Part shown: positions 3-20,157 of the stretch, piece by piece | Position numbering within the stretch: the first letter of the stretch is position 1 | How the letters are laid out: each line of letters begins with the position of its first letter | IMG/VR virus record: IMGVR_UViG_3300042893_001634 | Span: 1 to 20,157 of that record | DNA length: 20,157 bases | From: a virus | Direction: 5' to 3' (one strand) | Position numbers and translations under genes: made by a program | Notes under the pieces: model-generated | Seen by the model: the letters and a program-made list of their open reading frames with translations, nothing else | Databases searched by the model: none | What the model was told of the DNA's origin: nothing

Positions 3-959
3 TTAGGACTTATTAATAAAATTGGTTCGGGTGTTAGAGGTGCTGTAAGTGGCTATAAAGCAAGTCAATCACAGCGTAAAGGTGCAGATCATGCTGACCG
101 AATTGTGGCTAATTTAAAAAGAGATTTTATGGAGTTAGTAGGGGGAGGAGAACCTGCTACACGTAATAATTTAATTAAATTCCTCGGTACTCACGGATTA
201 CAAAATCTAGATGCGTTAGCTAATCCTACTACTCAGAGTAGTACTGTTACGCAACCTAAATTATCACCTACAAGTACTAATCCTGCAACTACAGATCCGG
301 GCGAGAGAAAAGAACCTACATTAGACCCTGAAGAATTACCGGCTGGTAACTCAGTTGATCAAACCAAACAGGCAAACTTAAAAGCTAGATTAAAAACTGG
401 TCAAGGCATGGGCACAAAAACAAGTACTGGATTTAAAAATTCTAGAGTAGGTGTTCCTGTACAAAAACTAGTTGGAAAGAATCCAGATGGATCACCTAAG
501 TTTAGTGTTGTCCGTGAAGATGTAGAAGAACCTAGAGCATTGAACAATAGACAAATTGATGATATTATTAAGGCAGCAGTAAAGAACAACTATTCAAGAA
601 TTGTAGCCGCACAACGAGGATTACCAGTCGACGATGACGAGCAACAATTGCCAACAACAGTATCACCAGAAGAACCATCTGAGCCGGCTGCAGAACCTGG
701 GCCTACTGCTACTAACCCTTTTAGCGACCCTAATAAACTTGCAGAAGATTGGAAAGCATATATTGCCGGTGGTGGACAATTAAATCCACAGTTGAGAAGA
801 TTAGCAAGGAACATTATGGCCAACACTCCGACTGAACCAAAACCGGATGCTACACCTACACAACCTAAACCTACTCGGGCAGAATTAGATGCTGACCATG
901 AACGTATGGCCAGTGGTTCAAATGAAGGGTATAGTCGGTTCTTAGGAATACAACTTTAA
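3..959 (+). CDS. Unrecognised Pro/Thr-rich phage protein, 5' end outside the window
   Basis: The frame is open from the first bases of the window, so the GTG at 105 is probably internal and the true start lies upstream. The visible part has a short Gly/Ala/Ser segment, then a predicted helical stretch (NLKRDFMELV). It continues as alternating folded-looking pieces and Pro/Thr/Glu linkers (around 215-345, 640-720 and 820-890). Two helical segments, RQIDDIIKAAVKNNYSRIVA and LNPQLRRLARNIMANT, sit between linkers. No transmembrane segment or enzyme motif is visible. The last codon (TAA, 957-959) overlaps the stop of the opposing minus-strand gene. I do not recognise the family. Its place in a late tail module and its modular, disordered composition suggest a virion or assembly protein, but that is inference. 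Confidence 0.7.
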   Translation, partial: LGLINKIGSGVRGAVSGYKASQSQRKGADHADRIVANLKRDFMELVGGGEPATRNNLIKFLGTHGLQNLDALANPTTQSSTVTQPKLSPTSTNPATTDPGERKEPTLDPEELPAGNSVDQTKQANLKARLKTGQGMGTKTSTGFKNSRVGVPVQKLVGKNPDGSPKFSVVREDVEEPRALNNRQIDDIIKAAVKNNYSRIVAAQRGLPVDDDEQQLPTTVSPEEPSEPAAEPGPTATNPFSDPNKLAEDWKAYIAGGGQLNPQLRRLARNIMANTPTEPKPDATPTQPKPTRAELDADHERMASGSNEGYSRFLGIQL

Positions 960-1183
960 AAGAACGGTAATCTAGTCTTACCTGTGGTTTCGAGATTACC
1001 TTCAATTAATTTTATAATTAATTCTCTATCTTGAAAATCAGTTTGATACGCTAGGTCCATAGGAAGGCCACCTCTCATAAACCAAGACATTCGAAATAGT
1101 TCTGTCTTTAAGGCTTTTGTCTCTTTTTCCATATCTTTAAGAAGCTTGGTTATCTCCTCAAAATTCAAAGACAAAAGCCTCAT
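956..1183 (-). CDS. Small tail-assembly partner protein, gp51-position / lambda-T-like; probable frameshift domain
   Basis: A 75-residue protein whose ATG overlaps the stop of the gp26-type gene (ATGA, 1180-1183). The N-terminal half is a charged helix (about residues 7-33). The second half holds SWFMRGGLPMDLAY and DRELIIKLIEGNLETT, a pattern I associate with small T4-like hub-assembly proteins and second-ORF tail chaperones. In T4 the gene beside 26 is 51, but T4 gp51 is much longer, so the equivalence is positional. No Shine-Dalgarno sequence precedes the ATG: the upstream bases are the slippery run TTTTTTCGG. Expression therefore probably depends on translational coupling or on -1 frameshifting from gp26, which enters exactly this frame and would give a fusion of about 363 residues. 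It ends tail to tail with the plus-strand gene. Confidence 0.72.
   Translation of the reverse strand: MRLLSLNFEEITKLLKDMEKETKALKTELFRMSWFMRGGLPMDLAYQTDFQDRELIIKLIEGNLETTGKTRLPFF
1111..1180 (-). repeat. Perfect 12-bp inverted repeat, probable frameshift-stimulating stem-loop
   Basis: The plus-strand segment 1111-1122 (AGGCTTTTGTCT) is the exact reverse complement of 1169-1180 (AGACAAAAGCCT). In the gp26/partner mRNA the first arm starts 5 nt after the slippery heptamer. The loop is 46 nt, long enough for inner pairing or a pseudoknot. Both arms lie within the coding sequence of the small partner gene. Confidence 0.75.
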
Positions 1184-2046
1184 CCGAAAAAACTTGAAGG
1201 ATCGAACGTAATAGGAATTTCTATTTCTTCTGCCGCACCTGCAGCAATCATTTCTGGCGTTGATTTTACTCTTGCAGGTTTAAGAGAATTCTTTTTTTGT
1301 AATAAGTCTAATCGTTCTTTAATAGCATCAAACACTTTTTTATCGCAGTTATTCATGAACTCTTGTAAAAATTCTGGATTATCAGTTGAACCTACTTTGC
1401 TTTCAATTTTATAAACACTATTAATTACAATGCCAACGGTTATGTCAGTTAATTTTTTAAAACTATCTTTAAATTGCTGTATCTTTTCTTCTTCCGATAA
1501 TGTTGAATCATTAACTAAACTTATTATTTTTTGAGTTTCAAAGCTTCGAATACTAGTTTTACTAGCAACTCGATAATTTACAGGTCTAACATAAATGGCC
1601 ATATCTAAGTCTAAATCAATTTTTTCATCCCATGATGCATTTTCATATAGTGAATCTAATATTGTTCTTAAATCTACACTATAGATCATTTCTTCCTCAC
1701 CAATTTTAAATGTGGTATCCATATTCTCGCCGTAGGTAGCCAATCTAATAGCAATAAGAATTGCGTCAGTATCAATGTTAGGCATATCCCAAGCATTAAT
1801 AATGTTAGGCATACAACTTTGTATAACATCAACTACTGCTTGACCGTTCATCAGTGCATCGGGCGTTTTAAGCAGTAATTCATCTTTAGCTGTCATAGAA
1901 TATACAGGGTATTCTCCAGTGTCGGTAATGTTAATTGTACCTTGGGGCCAATATTTTCCATTGCTGGGTAATTTAATATAAATCTTTGGTTGCCGCATTA
2001 GGCTGGCCAATGGATTTACATTTTGTTGTTGTGGGCTAGGAATCAT
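1180..2046 (-). CDS. 26: T4 gp26-like baseplate hub / tail assembly chaperone
   Basis: A 288-residue protein resembling the T4 baseplate protein family (gp26 and relatives). Features seen are an N-terminal beta segment (IYIKLPSNGKYWPQG), then PVYSMTAKDELLLKTPDAL, VVDVIQSCMPNI and DAILIAIRLATYGENM, in the usual family order. T4 gp26 is about 208 residues, so this one has a C-terminal extension with a charged helical region (about 180-260) and an end reading FDPSSFFG. In T4 the family acts in baseplate hub assembly; the fold and the position next to a tape-measure gene also suit a G-type tail chaperone. The start ATG (2046-2044) has a GGAG motif at 2059-2056 and a perfect minus-strand TATAAATA at 2096-2089. 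The last sense codons contain a T TTT TTC slippery site. The family assignment rests on recalled patterns, not a search. Confidence 0.72.
   Translation of the reverse strand: MIPSPQQQNVNPLASLMRQPKIYIKLPSNGKYWPQGTINITDTGEYPVYSMTAKDELLLKTPDALMNGQAVVDVIQSCMPNIINAWDMPNIDTDAILIAIRLATYGENMDTTFKIGEEEMIYSVDLRTILDSLYENASWDEKIDLDLDMAIYVRPVNYRVASKTSIRSFETQKIISLVNDSTLSEEEKIQQFKDSFKKLTDITVGIVINSVYKIESKVGSTDNPEFLQEFMNNCDKKVFDAIKERLDLLQKKNSLKPARVKSTPEMIAAGAAEEIEIPITFDPSSFFG
1186..1192 (-). promoter_or_regulatory. Candidate -1 ribosomal frameshift slippery site T TTT TTC
   Basis: On the minus strand the last codons of the gp26-type gene read agt ttt ttc gga tga, giving the heptamer T TTT TTC in the correct X XXY YYZ phase. 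Slipping back one base gives TTT TTT and then cgg atg agg, which is exactly the frame of the downstream 75-residue gene. The zero-frame TGA lies one codon after the heptamer, and a stem begins 5 nt after it. The layout is that of known -1 frameshift signals such as dnaX and lambda G-T. Confidence 0.75.
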
Positions 2047-2120: not shown

Positions 2121-4169
2121 ATGGCCATCGAAACAGCGGCAATGGAAGATCTATTAGAGCAGATACTTAAACAAGCTCAAGCTCAAAGCGCCATGCAGGC
2201 CGCAAGTTTTGCAAAATTGGCAAAAGCATCAGGATTAGATCCTAAAGCAATTGGCGATGCTCAGGCTAAACTTAAAAAATTAGGTGACGCGGCAGCAGAT
2301 AGTGCTGTAAAAGTTGATCACATGGCTTCTGCAGGAAAGTTAGTAGGATCTGTTCTTGGTGATTTAGCCGGCGGAATTGGCCATACGTTAAACAATCTAG
2401 TAGCATTTTCTGCTAAGGCGCTAGCTGGTACAAGCACAATGAACGACTTGTTCATGGCATTTAAAGACTTGCCTATCATTGGTGTGGTTGCAGGTTTGTT
2501 TGCTAATCTAGCCAAGATACAAGAAGAAAACTTGGCTAGTTATAGAAATCTTTCTAAATCTGGAGTTAATTTTGGACAATCAATAAACGAGTTAAGAATT
2601 ACAGCCGTTAGTTTAGGATTAAGTTTAGAACAGTTTAATAAAATGATAGGAGCAAGTGTAGATGCATTTGCTTTAATGGGCACCACAGCCAATGACGGTG
2701 CTAAAAACTTTAAAAATATAAACTTAGAACTAACAAAATCCGGCGGTGTAGGAGAACAGTTAAAGAATTTAGGATATAATTTTGAAGACATGAATTTGCT
2801 AACTGCAAGTTATATTAGAGTAACGGGCGGTTTAAGTAAAAAACAACAACAAGATTATCAAGGTGTTGCTGCCGCAGTAGCAGAATATGGAAAAGAATTA
2901 GATCTTATTGCAAGAATAACTGGCAGAAGTCGTGAACAACAAGAAAAAGAACTTGAAGAACAAATGAAGGAAGCAAACTTTCAAGCGTTCTTATCAGGTC
3001 AAGATGATAAAACAAGAAAGAAATTACAATTAGCAGTTAATGAAGCATTGGCCAATGCTGGCAAAGGTGGTGCAGATATTGTTAAAGCCAGTGCTATGGG
3101 ACTAGTAGCGCAAAGTGAACAGTCTGCCGCACTTTATTCACTGGCAGGTGATGCGGGCGAAACGCTTACTAAGATGGGCAAAGATGCTATGAATAAAAAT
3201 GTAGCACTTACTGATTTTCAAGCAGACTCAGCTAAACGATTAGGGACAGTAGTATATCAATTAGGCACCGCATATAGAGGAAACGAAATAACATTTAATG
3301 CAATGGCCCAAGGCGGAGATAAACTAGCAGAAACATTTGGTGTAGCCGCAAGAGCCGCAACGACTCTGAATAATAATAACATCAATACGTTAGATGAAGC
3401 GCAGGCTAATGCACAAAAAGAAGCGGCAATAGCAAGACATGAAGCTGAAAATAGAAGTTCATCTTTATCGGCTGCATTAGCTCTCGAAGATACAATGCGT
3501 AGACTAAATCTAGCATTTGTAAAATTAGGTGAAGTGTTAATTGACCAATTATTAAATCCATTAATAAAAGTGATAGAGGCTAATATGCCGGCAATTGAAA
3601 AAGGTATTATAGAGTTTGCAAAAGTTTTAAAAGAATGGATACCAAAAATATTCAGCGAAGATGGTCGACAAGAAATTATAGATAAGGTGGTTGAAGGGCT
3701 AACTTATATATTAAGTGTAGTGGCCGCTAAAGTTGGAGAAAAAGTGTTAGATCAAAGTACCGGTAATACAGATTTTCAAAATAGATTGAATGCTATAAAC
3801 AAATTCTTACCAACGTATTGGGCATTAAGGGCTTTAGGAATTGAATCCAACGTACAGAATCCACCAAAAGCGCCAGTGGGTCCTGCACCAAATCAAGGGA
3901 GAGCAGTTGGGTCGTGGGGACAAACCGGTCAACTGTTTGAAAACTTTGGAAATGGAACTGATGTAACATTACACGGAACTGAGGGAGTGTTTACTCCGCA
4001 ACAGATTCAAGCAATCATGGACGGCACTGCTTCAAATAAACTTAAAGATACTTTAGATGAGTTAAATACTACTAACAAGCAGATCTTACAGCACATGATG
4101 GCAATAGCTGACAATACTGGACGAACAGTTGATGCTACTAATGCATTAAATGGCAATATGCTTGCCTAA
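2121..4169 (+). CDS. Putative tail tape measure protein (T4 gp29-like role)
   Basis: A 682-residue, mostly helical, Ala/Gln/Lys-rich protein. It has N-terminal coiled-coil-like heptads (about 8-66), a hydrophobic stretch at about 117-131 (LPIIGVVAGLFANL), and a long charged helical middle with KKQQQDYQG and QQEKELEEQMKEANFQAFL. The C-terminal region, after a Pro-rich linker, contains LHGTEGVFTPQQ near residue 617, reminiscent of the conserved C-terminal motif of many tape measure proteins. T4 gp29 is about 590 residues. Such a protein sets tail tube length inside the tube and is bound by tail chaperones, which fits the divergent gp26-type gene next door. The ATG at 2121 follows a weak AGGAAAA. 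I assign it from composition, size, motif and neighbours, not from a recognised domain. Confidence 0.68.
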   Translation: MAIETAAMEDLLEQILKQAQAQSAMQAASFAKLAKASGLDPKAIGDAQAKLKKLGDAAADSAVKVDHMASAGKLVGSVLGDLAGGIGHTLNNLVAFSAKALAGTSTMNDLFMAFKDLPIIGVVAGLFANLAKIQEENLASYRNLSKSGVNFGQSINELRITAVSLGLSLEQFNKMIGASVDAFALMGTTANDGAKNFKNINLELTKSGGVGEQLKNLGYNFEDMNLLTASYIRVTGGLSKKQQQDYQGVAAAVAEYGKELDLIARITGRSREQQEKELEEQMKEANFQAFLSGQDDKTRKKLQLAVNEALANAGKGGADIVKASAMGLVAQSEQSAALYSLAGDAGETLTKMGKDAMNKNVALTDFQADSAKRLGTVVYQLGTAYRGNEITFNAMAQGGDKLAETFGVAARAATTLNNNNINTLDEAQANAQKEAAIARHEAENRSSSLSAALALEDTMRRLNLAFVKLGEVLIDQLLNPLIKVIEANMPAIEKGIIEFAKVLKEWIPKIFSEDGRQEIIDKVVEGLTYILSVVAAKVGEKVLDQSTGNTDFQNRLNAINKFLPTYWALRALGIESNVQNPPKAPVGPAPNQGRAVGSWGQTGQLFENFGNGTDVTLHGTEGVFTPQQIQAIMDGTASNKLKDTLDELNTTNKQILQHMMAIADNTGRTVDATNALNGNMLA

Positions 4170-14499: not shown

Positions 14500-17400
14500 A
14501 TGGCTGTTATTGGTCGCATATCTGGTCCGTTACTGGCGCAATATCTATTTAGAGATGGAATTGATATTTCCTTCTATAATGCAAACTCCTCTGAAGAGCC
14601 TGTTTTATATCTCGATGTTAATAACACTAGAGTTGGTATAAGAAAAAATACTCCAGCATATCCTTTAGATGTTAAAGGAACGATTAACGGAGATGTATTA
14701 AGAATTCTCGAGACCCCTGGTCAAGCAAGTACTACTGGTTTTGGTACTATTGGCAAAATATATATCTCTACAAACACAATTGCAAGTACTGTGGGCCCTG
14801 TTAATATTTCTCCACAAGGTGGCGATGATATTAATTTATTAAGTAACACTACTGTATTTGGCGATTTACACGCCTCTGGCAATATTACCGCAGATGGTGA
14901 TATTGGATTAGGTAACGTTCCTACAGACAGATTAAAAATTACTGCAGAAGTTGCAAGTAATATTATTCCAGCCGCCGACAATGTTTATACTATTGGAGCT
15001 GAAGGCTCAAGTTGGGCCGAAGGATGGTTTGAAAAACTTTATGCAAATGATATTGCAAGTTCCAAAGGATCGATTAGTATCACTCCTTCGGACGGACTAT
15101 TAGAAATTAATGGTCAACTAAGAGTCAAAGGCAACAAGAGTCCTTTAGGTACTTCTCCAGTTGTTACAAATGTATTGTATGTAACAATGGATGGTGATGA
15201 TACTAATGATGGCGCGGCAATGGATGAAACTCGTGCATGTCGTACAATTAGTGGTGCAGTCAAGAGTCCATTATATGCCCCAGGTACTGCTATTAAAGTT
15301 GCCGCTGGTAGATACTACGAAAATAATCCTATCCTAATGTTGCCCAATACCAGCATTATTGGTAGCGATTTAAGAACAACATTTATTGAACCAATTAATA
15401 AAACACAAGACTTATTCCATGTGCAATCGGGATGCTACATTGCACAGTTACAAATGAGTAACGGTCGAAGTGGCTTATTACCAATTGAAAACGCACCGGG
15501 ATATAATAGGGGTGCGTATGCTACGGCATTCCCTCCAGAAGTCGACGGCGAAAAGATTGACCTATTCCACTCGCCGTACATACAAAACTGTACCAATCAA
15601 AGCGGACCTTGGTTAAAAGATGGTACTATGTTTATACCAAACCAAACTGTACAAATTCCAAAGGCAGTTGCTATGGGGTCCTGGCCAGCAGGCGCAACAT
15701 CTCTTACAGTTGACATTTCAACTGGCACTATTGCCATTGGAGATAGTATTAATTCAGGTCCTCAAAACTTAGGATTCTTTGATGCAAGAACACTGATCCT
15801 GGCTAACAAACCTTTTATCCAAGAACAAGTAGTTAACTGGATTAACAGAAATATCACCCTGGCCGCATCGTCTACAACTTCTATATGGTATAACTTTAGT
15901 TACCAGCAGGCATTCTGTTATAGGGATGTTGGTATTATTTTAGAAAACTTATCTTATGATACAACATTTGGTGGAAACCAAAAAACTGTAGAAAGCGGAT
16001 TATCATATTTTAGGGGAGTTGTTAGTCTAATTGCAGGCCAAGAACAACAAACAATTGCAGCCATCAAGTATATTAATTCGTTAACACAAAAAATTATTAT
16101 TAATAATACTGTAACAACCTACGGAAGTGTTACTGCTTCACAAGTAGTTAATCCTAACTTAAAAGGCGGATCAATTGCCGCACAAAGTTTCTCTAACAAT
16201 ATTAGTTTACTTACAAATATTATTACTTTAGGTCCAGTTGCCGCTCCGGCAATAGTTCCAACTTCGGGTCCTGATACATTTATTGTGTCCGCTGAAGTGT
16301 TATTACAGGCCAATAGAGCGTTTATTCAAAATGAAGTCACTGCTTTTATAGATTATAACTATTCTAGTATTAATTATAGTACAGATAAATGTAAGAGAGA
16401 TTTAGGTCTTATTGTTGACTCTATTGGTCTTGATATGTTATATCCGACAGCTGACCATTCTCAGAGTTTCTTTGCAGGACTAACCTACTGGAATCAATCA
16501 GAGTACACTGGAACTATTGCAAACGAGTTAACAACAACTACTAATGCTATTAAGTTTGTAAGAGATCTATCTCAAGAAATTATACAAAATGGTACTACAG
16601 GTGCTAGGTATCAATCTTCAGAAACACAAAATACAAGCCTACCACCTGCTTCTGCTGTAGAAGCAGATATTATTGCCGACGAATTTAATTTAATTATTGA
16701 TATTTTAATAAAGGGCACAGTTGGTTTTTCAGATAGAGTTATTCCTAATAGCTCAACAACAAGTACTGCCGTATCTACATGGAATGCTTATAATATATTA
16801 CAGGCAAACAAATCATTTATTGCGGCTGAAACAATTGCCTTTGTAGATCAGAATAAATCTTCAGGATTTGTATATGATGCCACAAAATGCGCTAGAGATG
16901 TTGGCTATATGATTGATTCCGTGAGTTTTGACTTGTTACACGGCGGTAATCGACAAGCAATTCAAAGCGGTGTATACTATTATACTTTTAATGCTAGCGA
17001 CTCTGCAATTAGAAATGAAATTCCACAGACGTTATATGCATACAATACTCTAACAAATCTTATTTCTGATCTAATGGTAAACAATGTAGTAACTCCTTCT
17101 ATGGGAAATAAGTTAACACAAAATACTTCATTGCCGCCAGCTACTCCGACACAGTCTACTGAACTAGGTACATACCTCGGCGACATTGTTACTATTATAC
17201 AATCTGGCCCAAGTGCTTTGGGTTATAACAAAGTACCTATTGGGTTATCGAGGGTGTCAGATGCTAATAAAGAAAAAGCATATGATATTCTACAAGCTAA
17301 CAGAGATTTTATTAAAGAAGAAATTGTTGCTCGTGTTAATCAACAGTATTTTAGACAACATACTTATAATCAAGCAAAATGTTATAGAGATACAGGGCTA

Positions 17401-18312
17401 ATTGTTGACTCAGTTGTACAAGATCTATTGCATACTACATCTAGTCAGTCAACATTTGCAGGATTACAATATTGGAATCAAGGAAACTTAACTGGGCTAA
17501 TCGGAGTCCAAATTACAACTACTACTAATGCTATTATATTTGCAAAAAACTTATGTAAGAAAATTGTTGTAAATGATTTTTCAAATCCAAGATTTTCAAC
17601 AGGCACACAAGTTACAACATCTACAGGCGGTCTAGCACTGCCTGCCGCAACAGATGCTGAACAACAATTTATTGAAAACGATTTCCAAGTTATTTTAAAT
17701 ATTCTTGCAAACGGTGTTGTTGGTGTATCTGATATTATTGTTCCAAACGGAATTGAAGAATCGTACAATATTAACGTTCGACAAGCGCATGATCTATTAC
17801 AGGCAAATAAAGAATACATTAAACAGGAAGTAATTTCCTATATCAATTCTACTAATCCGGGATTTACATATAATCAGGCAACTTGTGCTAGAGATGTAGG
17901 ATACCTGGTTGATAGTGTAAGTTTTGATCTATTATATGGCGGAAACAAACAAGCAGTTCAATCCGGAGTATACTATTACGGCTACAATAGTGGCTCAAGC
18001 GCAATCTATGGTCAAACAACAGGAACTATAGCTGCCTACACGTATATTAGAAATATAATTCCTCAAATTATATCAGGAAATGCTGTAACAGCCTACCAAT
18101 CTACCGTTACGCAAGTATTTGGTGAAAGTACTGTTGACCCAACAGTAATAGTAGCGGCGGTTGGAAAAATAGATATTATAACTAATATCATTCAAAACGG
18201 TCCAAGCGTTGCCGGTGACGAATCACCAATTCAGAAAACAGTATCTACAAACACCAATATAATTACTGCGGCCACTATATTGGCGTCCAACAGAAAGTTT
18301 ATTCAAGCATAA
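14500..18312 (+). CDS. Giant fibre/adhesin protein, N-terminal 1270 residues before an in-frame TAA
   Basis: Strong start: GAGGAG six bases before ATG. Residues 1-60 (ISFYNANSSEEPVLYLDVNN, then RVGIRKNTPAYPLDVKGTI) and GDLHASGNITADGDIGLGN are fibre-type beta modules; a segment with SSWAEGWFEKLYANDI follows. At about 220-310 comes a right-handed beta-helix-like region (YVTMDGDDTNDG, PGTAIKVAAGRYYENNPILM, NTSIIGSDLRTTFIEP). From about residue 435 the protein turns helical, with units starting ANxxFI and carrying a conserved C-x-R-D-x-G motif. Five full units fall in this part and a sixth is interrupted by TAA at 18310. The same frame stays open for 615 more codons to the window end, so the complete protein exceeds 1,885 residues. 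I read it as a host- or surface-binding fibre; no enzymatic motif was seen. Confidence 0.75.
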   Translation: MAVIGRISGPLLAQYLFRDGIDISFYNANSSEEPVLYLDVNNTRVGIRKNTPAYPLDVKGTINGDVLRILETPGQASTTGFGTIGKIYISTNTIASTVGPVNISPQGGDDINLLSNTTVFGDLHASGNITADGDIGLGNVPTDRLKITAEVASNIIPAADNVYTIGAEGSSWAEGWFEKLYANDIASSKGSISITPSDGLLEINGQLRVKGNKSPLGTSPVVTNVLYVTMDGDDTNDGAAMDETRACRTISGAVKSPLYAPGTAIKVAAGRYYENNPILMLPNTSIIGSDLRTTFIEPINKTQDLFHVQSGCYIAQLQMSNGRSGLLPIENAPGYNRGAYATAFPPEVDGEKIDLFHSPYIQNCTNQSGPWLKDGTMFIPNQTVQIPKAVAMGSWPAGATSLTVDISTGTIAIGDSINSGPQNLGFFDARTLILANKPFIQEQVVNWINRNITLAASSTTSIWYNFSYQQAFCYRDVGIILENLSYDTTFGGNQKTVESGLSYFRGVVSLIAGQEQQTIAAIKYINSLTQKIIINNTVTTYGSVTASQVVNPNLKGGSIAAQSFSNNISLLTNIITLGPVAAPAIVPTSGPDTFIVSAEVLLQANRAFIQNEVTAFIDYNYSSINYSTDKCKRDLGLIVDSIGLDMLYPTADHSQSFFAGLTYWNQSEYTGTIANELTTTTNAIKFVRDLSQEIIQNGTTGARYQSSETQNTSLPPASAVEADIIADEFNLIIDILIKGTVGFSDRVIPNSSTTSTAVSTWNAYNILQANKSFIAAETIAFVDQNKSSGFVYDATKCARDVGYMIDSVSFDLLHGGNRQAIQSGVYYYTFNASDSAIRNEIPQTLYAYNTLTNLISDLMVNNVVTPSMGNKLTQNTSLPPATPTQSTELGTYLGDIVTIIQSGPSALGYNKVPIGLSRVSDANKEKAYDILQANRDFIKEEIVARVNQQYFRQHTYNQAKCYRDTGLIVDSVVQDLLHTTSSQSTFAGLQYWNQGNLTGLIGVQITTTTNAIIFAKNLCKKIVVNDFSNPRFSTGTQVTTSTGGLALPAATDAEQQFIENDFQVILNILANGVVGVSDIIVPNGIEESYNINVRQAHDLLQANKEYIKQEVISYINSTNPGFTYNQATCARDVGYLVDSVSFDLLYGGNKQAVQSGVYYYGYNSGSSAIYGQTTGTIAAYTYIRNIIPQIISGNAVTAYQSTVTQVFGESTVDPTVIVAAVGKIDIITNIIQNGPSVAGDESPIQKTVSTNTNIITAATILASNRKFIQA

Positions 18313-19360
18313 ACAGTTGCTTATGTAAATCAATTCTTTGCGTTTGATTATAACAGAGCAAAATGTAAGAGAGATGCAGGATATATTGTTGATGCAGTTA
18401 CATTAGATTTAATTTTAGGCGGAACTACAAAGGCACTTGAGTGCGGTCTTAACTATTGGGTTGGGGCAAGAAATTACGTAGAAGGCCAAGTACCCCAAAC
18501 AGTTGACGGAGTTAATAGAGCTAGAGAGATTTCTATATCTATTATTAAAAATCTACCAGTAACAAGAACTACAGGTAACGGTACCGCACAAATTATTAAC
18601 ACTTATTTTAGCAACGGTGTATACGCAACTGATCGAGTAAAAGGCACATATGATATTATTACCAATATTATTCAGAATGGCCCAGACAGCCTAGGCGTGC
18701 CAGACAGCTACGAAGGATCTGGTCTATTTGCATCCACCGGTATTAGTAATAATGATGTTAAGATTGCACCAAAGGTAACATCAATTATTCCGTTTACATA
18801 TAGCGAATCAGTATATAGAGCTAGTGGAAATTATATTCTTGATGCAACATATTATGATGTTGGATTAGGTACTAATTATAAGTTAATAACTTCTGGTAAT
18901 ATGTATTTAGGTCGGGTACCGCCATTTGAAACTTTAGGTAATACACAATTAACTCAATCAATTAGTGCCTTTAATTATCTTAAATCTAGAGCCATAACAA
19001 TTATGGCAGCTAATACTCCGGCAGTGGTAGGAACAACAAATATATATGCTAATCTAATTGATATAATTAATGGCCTATATCCTGCCGCACTTACTTTCAC
19101 TAATCCTGCAAGTGCAACAGCTAGCCAGATTGGTGCAAAAGATATATTAGTTGAAAATCGAGATTATTTAAGATCGGCAGTTGTTGCATGGATTGAAGCG
19201 CAAATTAAAAATAATATTGCACCATTTACAACTACATTTAATTATAATAAAGAAAAATGTAGTCGTGACGTTGGATACATTGTTGATGCATTATGTTATG
19301 ATTTACTATACGGCGGAAATAGTGCTATTCGACAAGTTGCTACTGCATATTTTACATCTG
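15802..19360 (+). repeat. Seven ~165-residue helical repeats, partly arranged as a two-unit super-repeat
   Basis: The ANxxFI-type starts lie at 15802, 16309, 16804, 17296, 17803, 18283 and 19153. Spacings are 507, 495, 492, 507, 480 and 870 bp. Each unit has (A/E)N(R/K)x(F/Y)(I/L), then C-x-R-D-x-G-x-(I/L/M)-(V/I/L)-(D/E), then a Gly-Gly-Asn or equivalent turn. Units 2 and 4 share FAGL(T/Q)YWNQ; units 3 and 5 share QSGVYYY and IIQ(S/N)GPS. This implies that a pair of units was duplicated. Confidence 0.85.
18310..18312 (+). other. In-frame TAA interrupting repeat unit 6
   Basis: The unit reads FIQA-TAA-TVAYVN. The aligned position is Glu in units 2-5 (FIQNEV, FIAAET, FIKEEI, YIKQEV), so one change from GAA to TAA explains it. 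The frame continues open to the window end. Confidence 0.85.
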
Positions 19361-20157
19361 CAGGAGCAAGTACAATATTAGGAGAACAATCTCAGTCAGT
19401 TGCCGCGTTTCAATACATGTCAACATTGGCACAGCAAACTATAAATGCCGGCGGTATAGTAACTTCGACAGAAACTACAAGACTAAGTTCTCTAGTAGAC
19501 ATTATTACCGGAGCAATTACTGCGGGTAATTTAACTAGCTTACCGTCAGTTGTTAATCCAGATATCACCTGGGCCGATGCCGGCATACAAACAGCAGTCG
19601 GCGCATTAAGTTCTGCAAAGTCAACAGTAATCGATGACATGATTACCTATATTAATTCAACACCGGCTACTAGTTATATTATCGGGTTAGATAAACCAAC
19701 TGTAGGTAATGCGTCAAATGCTACTTTATATTTTGGTAAAACTGCTGTGTTCCCTAAACTTGCGGCAGAGTTTACCACACAGGAAGCTAAAGATTGGGGA
19801 CAACGTATGATTGATCCTACAGGATCAATGGGCGGAAGTTTAGTTGACGGAAATGTAATTAGCTCACGTAGTCCAATTAACTCGTTTGTTTATGATGCGT
19901 TTACACAAGTTAACCAAGGTGGACGCGGTATTCATATTATTAACAACGGTTATGCACAGTTAGTTTCTGTGTTTACTATATTCTGCTCAACCGCTGTTGA
20001 AGTTGGCAATGGCGGTATTGCTTCTATTACTAACAGTAATAGTAACTTTGGTGACCTTTGCTTGGTTGCAAAAGGAAAAGGTAGATTAGAATTCCAAGGA
20101 ACAGTTTATAACCCCTCATTCCCTACACTTGCACAAACAGGCGGACAAACCACAAAC
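18313..20157 (+). CDS. Giant fibre/adhesin protein, continuation downstream of the TAA (3' end outside window)
   Basis: Directly after the TAA the same frame runs 615 codons without a stop. It completes repeat unit 6 (FDYNRAKCKRDAGYIVDAV) and holds a longer spacer with different sequence (18720-19140). It then has unit 7 (FNYNKEKCSRDVGYIVDALC) and a region of conserved beta-helix sequence: GGSLVDGNVISSRSPINSFV, DAFTQVNQGGRGIHIINNGY, STAVEVGNGGIASITNSNSN, FGDLCLVAKGKG. That last region looks like the other half of the beta-helix begun at about 15180. There is no convincing start codon with a Shine-Dalgarno after the TAA, so it is a continuation and not a new gene. Whether it is made depends on the TAA being an error, a strain variant or read through. 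Confidence 0.7.

Follow-up and report, generated by a model that had tools for sequence, protein, structure and literature searches.

The stretch of DNA analyzed here (hereafter the window) is a virus record of 20,157 bases that carries a T4-like head and tail region, including a portal gene (PF07230, E 7e-109). We focus on a minus-strand ORF whose protein matches two families, namely PF12322 in Pfam (T4_baseplate, the family of T4 gp26 and gp51; 33.9 bits with a cut-off of 24.5, E=3.3e-8) and phrog_150 in PHROG (baseplate hub, E=7.9e-16). The features around the end of this gene are collected in Table 1.

Table 1. Features of the putative frameshift junction and its surroundings in the window
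Feature	Coordinates	Strand	Basis
Zero-frame ORF, 288 aa, gp26-like short form, TAC-N candidate	1180..2046	-	PF12322 and phrog_150 matches
Slippery heptamer T TTT TTC, in phase	1186..1192	-	Direct reading and identity in homologous junctions
Extension read in the -1 frame (R MRLLSLNF... LPFF), 76 residues followed by the stop	956..1186	-	Conserved, gap-free protein
5' arm of the downstream stem; strong core GGCUUUUGUCU from 1179	1167..1182	-	RNA fold, compensatory changes
3' arm of the downstream stem	1109..1124	-	RNA fold, compensatory changes
Inner hairpin inside the stem loop; prediction for the window alone	1135..1163	-	RNA fold
Divergent neighbor, 682 aa, probable tape measure protein	2121..4169	+	Position relative to the RaK2/CBB homologues

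The final codons of the ORF are AGT TTT TTC GGA TGA, in which T TTT TTC stands in the X XXY YYZ phase (TTTTTTCGGATGA, minus strand 1192..1180). An earlier note on this DNA had placed the heptamer in the correct phase, one codon ahead of the gp26-type TGA, and a direct reading of the codons agrees. The consequence it predicted is equally borne out: a -1 slip leads into CGG ATG AGG and a frame that stays open to the stop at 956, giving a fusion of 287 + 76 = 363 residues. Taken as a bare 7-mer, T TTT TTC is common in this AT-rich DNA (five occurrences on the minus strand of the window versus about 6.8 expected from composition alone), and we dropped the idea that it is a compositional rarity; its phase and position are not a matter of chance. 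A second canonical heptamer, A AAA AAG, also lies in phase within the gp26-like gene (minus strand 1297-1291). We consider it a chance occurrence, since a stop follows three codons later and we saw no such motif in relatives.

By position, the divergent neighbor is homologous to CBB_251 and to RaK2 ORF088, whose annotation notes a similarity to a tape measure protein. It has no Pfam or PHROG match of its own, and its probable identity as the tape measure protein is thus drawn from positional homology. A tRNA search of the window found none. Further along the plus strand, the ORFs at 14500-18312 and 18697-20157 encode large proteins that contain repeats (RDVGYLVDSVSFDLLYGGN...). These run on through the gap between the two ORFs, which may be a single gene with a break.

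Relatives, heptamer conservation, and the downstream stem

A search of viral contigs with the single protein returned no relatives, and the relatives were retrieved with an alignment as the query. In nine annotated jumbo phages (XaC1, BF, CBB, Vibrio 2.275, 121Q, RaK2, Phosso, MIJ3, and Atu_ph07), whose homologues are 27-30% identical to the window's protein across the alignment, an in-phase heptamer occupies the corresponding position, from which the -1 frame leads into a related extension; the zero-frame stop follows 1 to about 11 codons after the heptamer. The RaK2-like jumbo phages and their relatives (RaK2, 121Q, CBB, BF, Atu_ph07, MIJ3, and Phosso) thus share the junction, heptamer, and -1 extension with the window, and the neighboring genes are mostly the same. 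Among the closer IMG/VR relatives (43-65% identical), the heptamer is present in 79 of 79 readable junctions.

With duplicates removed, T TTT TTC is found in phase in all 80 distinct junctions, from homologues that are 27-65% identical. The expectation that heptamer and phase would be conserved at synonymous positions across related phages therefore holds for 80 of 80 diverged junctions. The same result is obtained from the other side of the junction, as the loci fetched with the extension protein as the sole query carry the heptamer in 72 of 72 distinct cases. The extension itself is 76 aa long in every complete IMG/VR relative, with a protein that is conserved without gaps. No frameshift is annotated in the records viewed for RaK2-like jumbo phages and relatives, and the extension is left unannotated in the RaK2 and MIJ3 records.

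Folding of the window RNA from the end of the heptamer predicts a 16-bp stem (-27.3 kcal/mol; z -5.29, with 0 of 200 shuffles equally good) that starts 3 nt downstream and has its strong core starting at 6 nt. A best-stem score of at least 20 is reached at 75% of the 80 junctions versus 2% of control positions within the same genes. Compensatory changes were counted in 41 sequences chosen without regard to the stem: 41 helix cells are altered on both sides, where shuffles give 16.7 and slid controls no more than 12. Double changes affect 7 of the 10 helix pairs, and one pair occurs as AU, UA, CG, and GC. The stem is weak or absent in several clades. Its 5' arm is fixed, and the distance from the heptamer to the 3' arm is about 36, 54, or 73 nt depending on the clade, in steps of some 18 nt (L062, L037, L076, and the window). 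Searching Rfam with the stem gave only a sub-threshold microRNA match (E 0.32, far under the gathering score), which we regard as chance.

Alternative readings of the junction

We hold with high confidence that the PF12322 gene encodes a putative tail assembly chaperone made in two lengths via a -1 frameshift at T TTT TTC. Other explanations of the same junction have to be weighed, the simplest being that the heptamer merely reflects a conserved Phe-Phe motif and that the extension is read in some other way. The motif is indeed invariant in the protein alignment, but codon usage already contradicts this explanation. The pair is written TTT TTC in 80 of 80 junctions, whereas Phe elsewhere in these genes is encoded by TTT 777 times (79%) and by TTC 201 times (21%). 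Codon choice is mixed at the other Phe-Phe pairs in the homologous genes, whose 22,557 codons hold no further T TTT TTC in phase. The codon before the pair specifies N, D, S, T, H, Y, or R, yet its third base is T in 80 of 80. The nominal probabilities (10^-17 for the preceding codon's T and 10^-63 for TTT TTC) overstate the significance because the sequences share kinship. Even so, a varying amino acid with an invariant third base would be hard to explain otherwise, and we consider the probability that only a protein motif is conserved here to be practically negligible.

The downstream frame could also be a separate small gene, translated by termination-reinitiation where its start overlaps the stop of the gp26-like gene. 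Stop and ATG do share the overlap ATGA in the window, and the annotators of several relatives have called a small gene at this place. An ATG is, however, the second -1 codon, as it is in the window, in only 13 of 80 junctions, and in 30 of 80 no ATG, GTG, or TTG occurs among the 14 codons that open the -1 frame. As the earlier note had also remarked, the downstream frame has no Shine-Dalgarno sequence of its own, and the 20 nt before the heptamer contain no such motif, either in the window or in any of the 80 junctions. The sequence constraint points the same way: the -1 frame opens with R in 79 of 80 junctions and has R or K as its third residue in 76 of 80, and the zero-frame residue after FF, which overlaps the conserved R, can be G, A, V, E, D, or R. 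This R is conserved upstream of any possible start, and the constraint on the -1 frame thus begins at the heptamer, the invariance of which a separate gene would leave unexplained. Reinitiation is for these reasons very unlikely. The same 20 nt hold no Shine-Dalgarno-like frameshift stimulator in any of the 80 junctions; this is not disqualifying, since such stimulators, present at some bacterial -1 sites, are optional and non-defining.

Joining of the two frames by the RNA polymerase rather than by the ribosome deserves mention because the site is a homopolymer run. The run, however, has a constant length of six T across the 80 distinct junctions, which is short for polymerase slippage. Moreover, its codon phase is fixed and the downstream stem is conserved at ribosomal spacing, neither of which favors transcriptional slippage, and we judge it a shade less probable still than reinitiation. 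Ribosomal -1 frameshifting remains our preferred reading of the junction, with about as much backing as sequence data can give it.

Probable correspondence with T4 gp26 and gp51

When whole records are searched for PF12322, each of 11 heptamer-bearing jumbo phages proves to have a single copy, whereas T4 (gp26 and gp51) and eight further Straboviridae have two. No T-run heptamer is present at the end of the gp26 gene in T4 and five other Straboviridae examined; the gp26 gene of RB43 has T TTA AAG, with no open -1 frame beyond it. The Straboviridae proteins resemble those of the window in the PF12322 domain, in having a short form and a long form with a C-terminal tail, and in the neighboring tail and baseplate genes, but T4 and the eight others use two complete genes where the window has one gene with a putative frameshift.

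The single-copy arrangement extends to other T4-type phages. P-SSM2, S-PM2, HTVC008M, Cr30, and phiM12 have one PF12322 copy with T TTT TTC or T TTT TTT in phase at the same place, and cyanophage-like contigs carry T TTT TTC in 79 of 80 cases. The PF12322 gene and short "gp51" of cyanophages and Pelagibacter phages are thus like the window's locus in the single copy, the in-phase heptamer, the -1 extension, and the downstream stem. They differ in that their extension is about 60 aa long and clearly gp51-like (versus 76 aa in the window) and in that their stem closes at about 35 nt. Two loci show other configurations. In a 236-kb contig with one PF12322 copy (L195, ~2180-2200), the short form and the extension are naturally joined in frame and the heptamer is lost. 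Salmonella phage Vi01 (L125), also with one copy, has no canonical heptamer, and its -1 frame still encodes a homologous, gp51-tail-like extension (YSIFEISESMPWHLDLL).

An hhalign comparison matches the cyanophage -1 extension over its full length to the gp51 C-terminus (97%, E 3e-10). For the jumbo-phage extension, the register of the alignment is unchanged but the match is weak (E 0.0035 at a score of 16.5, with a probability of about 4%). None of 200 column shuffles reaches 16.5 in this comparison (maximum 13.2), a figure for which we relied on the clean gp51 set alone, as a shuffled value of about 130 turned up in two of the control sets and seems to be an artefact of the output. The whole fusion gave no useful hhalign alignment with gp51; the C-terminal part alone aligned, weakly. 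It is therefore well supported, on these profile alignments, that the short form of cyanophages is gp26-like and their long form gp51-like, and probable that the same holds for the lineage of the window.

The earlier note had placed a downstream partner gene next to the tape measure gene. The neighbor is indeed probably the tape measure gene, but the partner is not a "gene 51" of its own: in T4, genes 26 and 51 are read in divergent directions and both encode a PF12322 domain. The downstream frame is instead probably the counterpart of the gp51 C-terminal tail, with the fusion as the gp51 equivalent. According to Sullivan et al. 2010 (PMC3037559), the cyanophage gp51 is about 20% of the length of T4-type gp51, with the first ~200 aa missing; if ribosomes shift out of the gp26-like frame at its end, these residues would be accounted for. 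It seems to us reasonably likely, though well short of certain, that a single frameshifted gp26/gp51 gene is the general and probably ancestral T4-type arrangement (in the jumbo, cyanophage, Pelagibacter, Caulobacter, and Sinorhizobium lineages), that the T4 pair is a derived duplication which replaced the frameshift, and that the 3' arm of the stem switched registers among clades while the 5' arm was kept.

Putative chaperone function, proposed mechanism, and significance

A T4 review (PMC3004832) lists gp26 and gp51 among the hub assembly chaperones. A chaperone role is inferred for the products of the window's PF12322 gene from this, from the CBB and literature observations below, and from the probable tape measure neighbor. 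The available excerpts of the CBB virion protein table list CBB_251 (29 peptides, 50% coverage), whereas neither CBB_249 nor CBB_250, the CBB homologue of the window's PF12322 protein, appears there, which would fit an assembly factor. The GenBank label of CBB_250 is nonetheless "structural protein." An AlphaFold model has a pLDDT of 82, and sequence and fold searches of the PDB gave nothing informative, no listed match being a phage tail chaperone or having a known chaperone fold. RaK2-type jumbo homologues have two CxxC pairs (a possible zinc ribbon) that are absent from the gp26-like protein of the window, at its residues ~115-118 and 268-271.

A known system for comparison is lambda G/GT, with its relatives, which the locus resembles in having overlapping frames near a (probable) tape measure gene, a heptamer close to the short frame's end, and two predicted product lengths. 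The lambda heptamer is G GGA AAG versus T TTT TTC in the window, and the probable tape measure neighbor of the window is divergent, unlike that of lambda. In the lambda relatives, a -1 frameshift of the G/GT type has reportedly been described (Xu 2004). A further comparison is phage Adele (Vandenendeviridae/Andersonviridae), which appears in PMC12846349 as a myovirus with a poly-T -1 site and an unannotated extension; its motif is GTTTTT, and it belongs to a different phage family from that of the window. According to PMC10274946 and PMC12846349 (2025), both citing Vladimirov et al. 2022, who reportedly identified T4-like tail assembly chaperones, some T4-like phages carry their tail assembly chaperones as a short and a longer gene, and poly-T slippery sites are known in T4-like TAC-N genes (PMC12846349). 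The proposal of a G/GT-type mechanism for gp26 and its partner is supported by the heptamer, its phase, the stem, and the lack of a visible independent ribosome binding site, but it is not a new idea for T4-like phages: both the mechanism class and its use in this group are already in the literature. The heptamer and putative frameshift throughout the jumbo lineage, together with the covarying stem, on the other hand, appear to be so far unannotated.

The heptamer, its phase, the constraint on the -1 frame, the stem with its compensatory changes, and the pattern of one gene versus two are properties of the sequences themselves. From these, we infer the slippage and its rate as follows. Most ribosomes would terminate at the TGA and release the 288-aa gp26-like form. 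A minority would pause at the stem 3-6 nt downstream of the heptamer and slip by -1 on T TTT TTC, with the tRNAs re-pairing from TTT/TTC to TTT/TTT. These ribosomes would then read on to produce the 363-aa form with its 76-residue C-terminal domain, the presumed counterpart of T4 gp51. The short and long forms probably cooperate while the tail is assembled on the tape measure protein, as lambda gpG and gpGT do.

The finding sets right how a conserved tail gene is annotated in many jumbo and marine phages, in which the long product is missing or recorded as a stray small gene. It also offers a possible explanation for the truncated look of the cyanophage "gp51." Finally, it provides a natural comparison of two routes to one protein pair, namely a single frameshifted gene and the two genes of T4, which makes it testable whether selection holds the ratio of short to long product constant.
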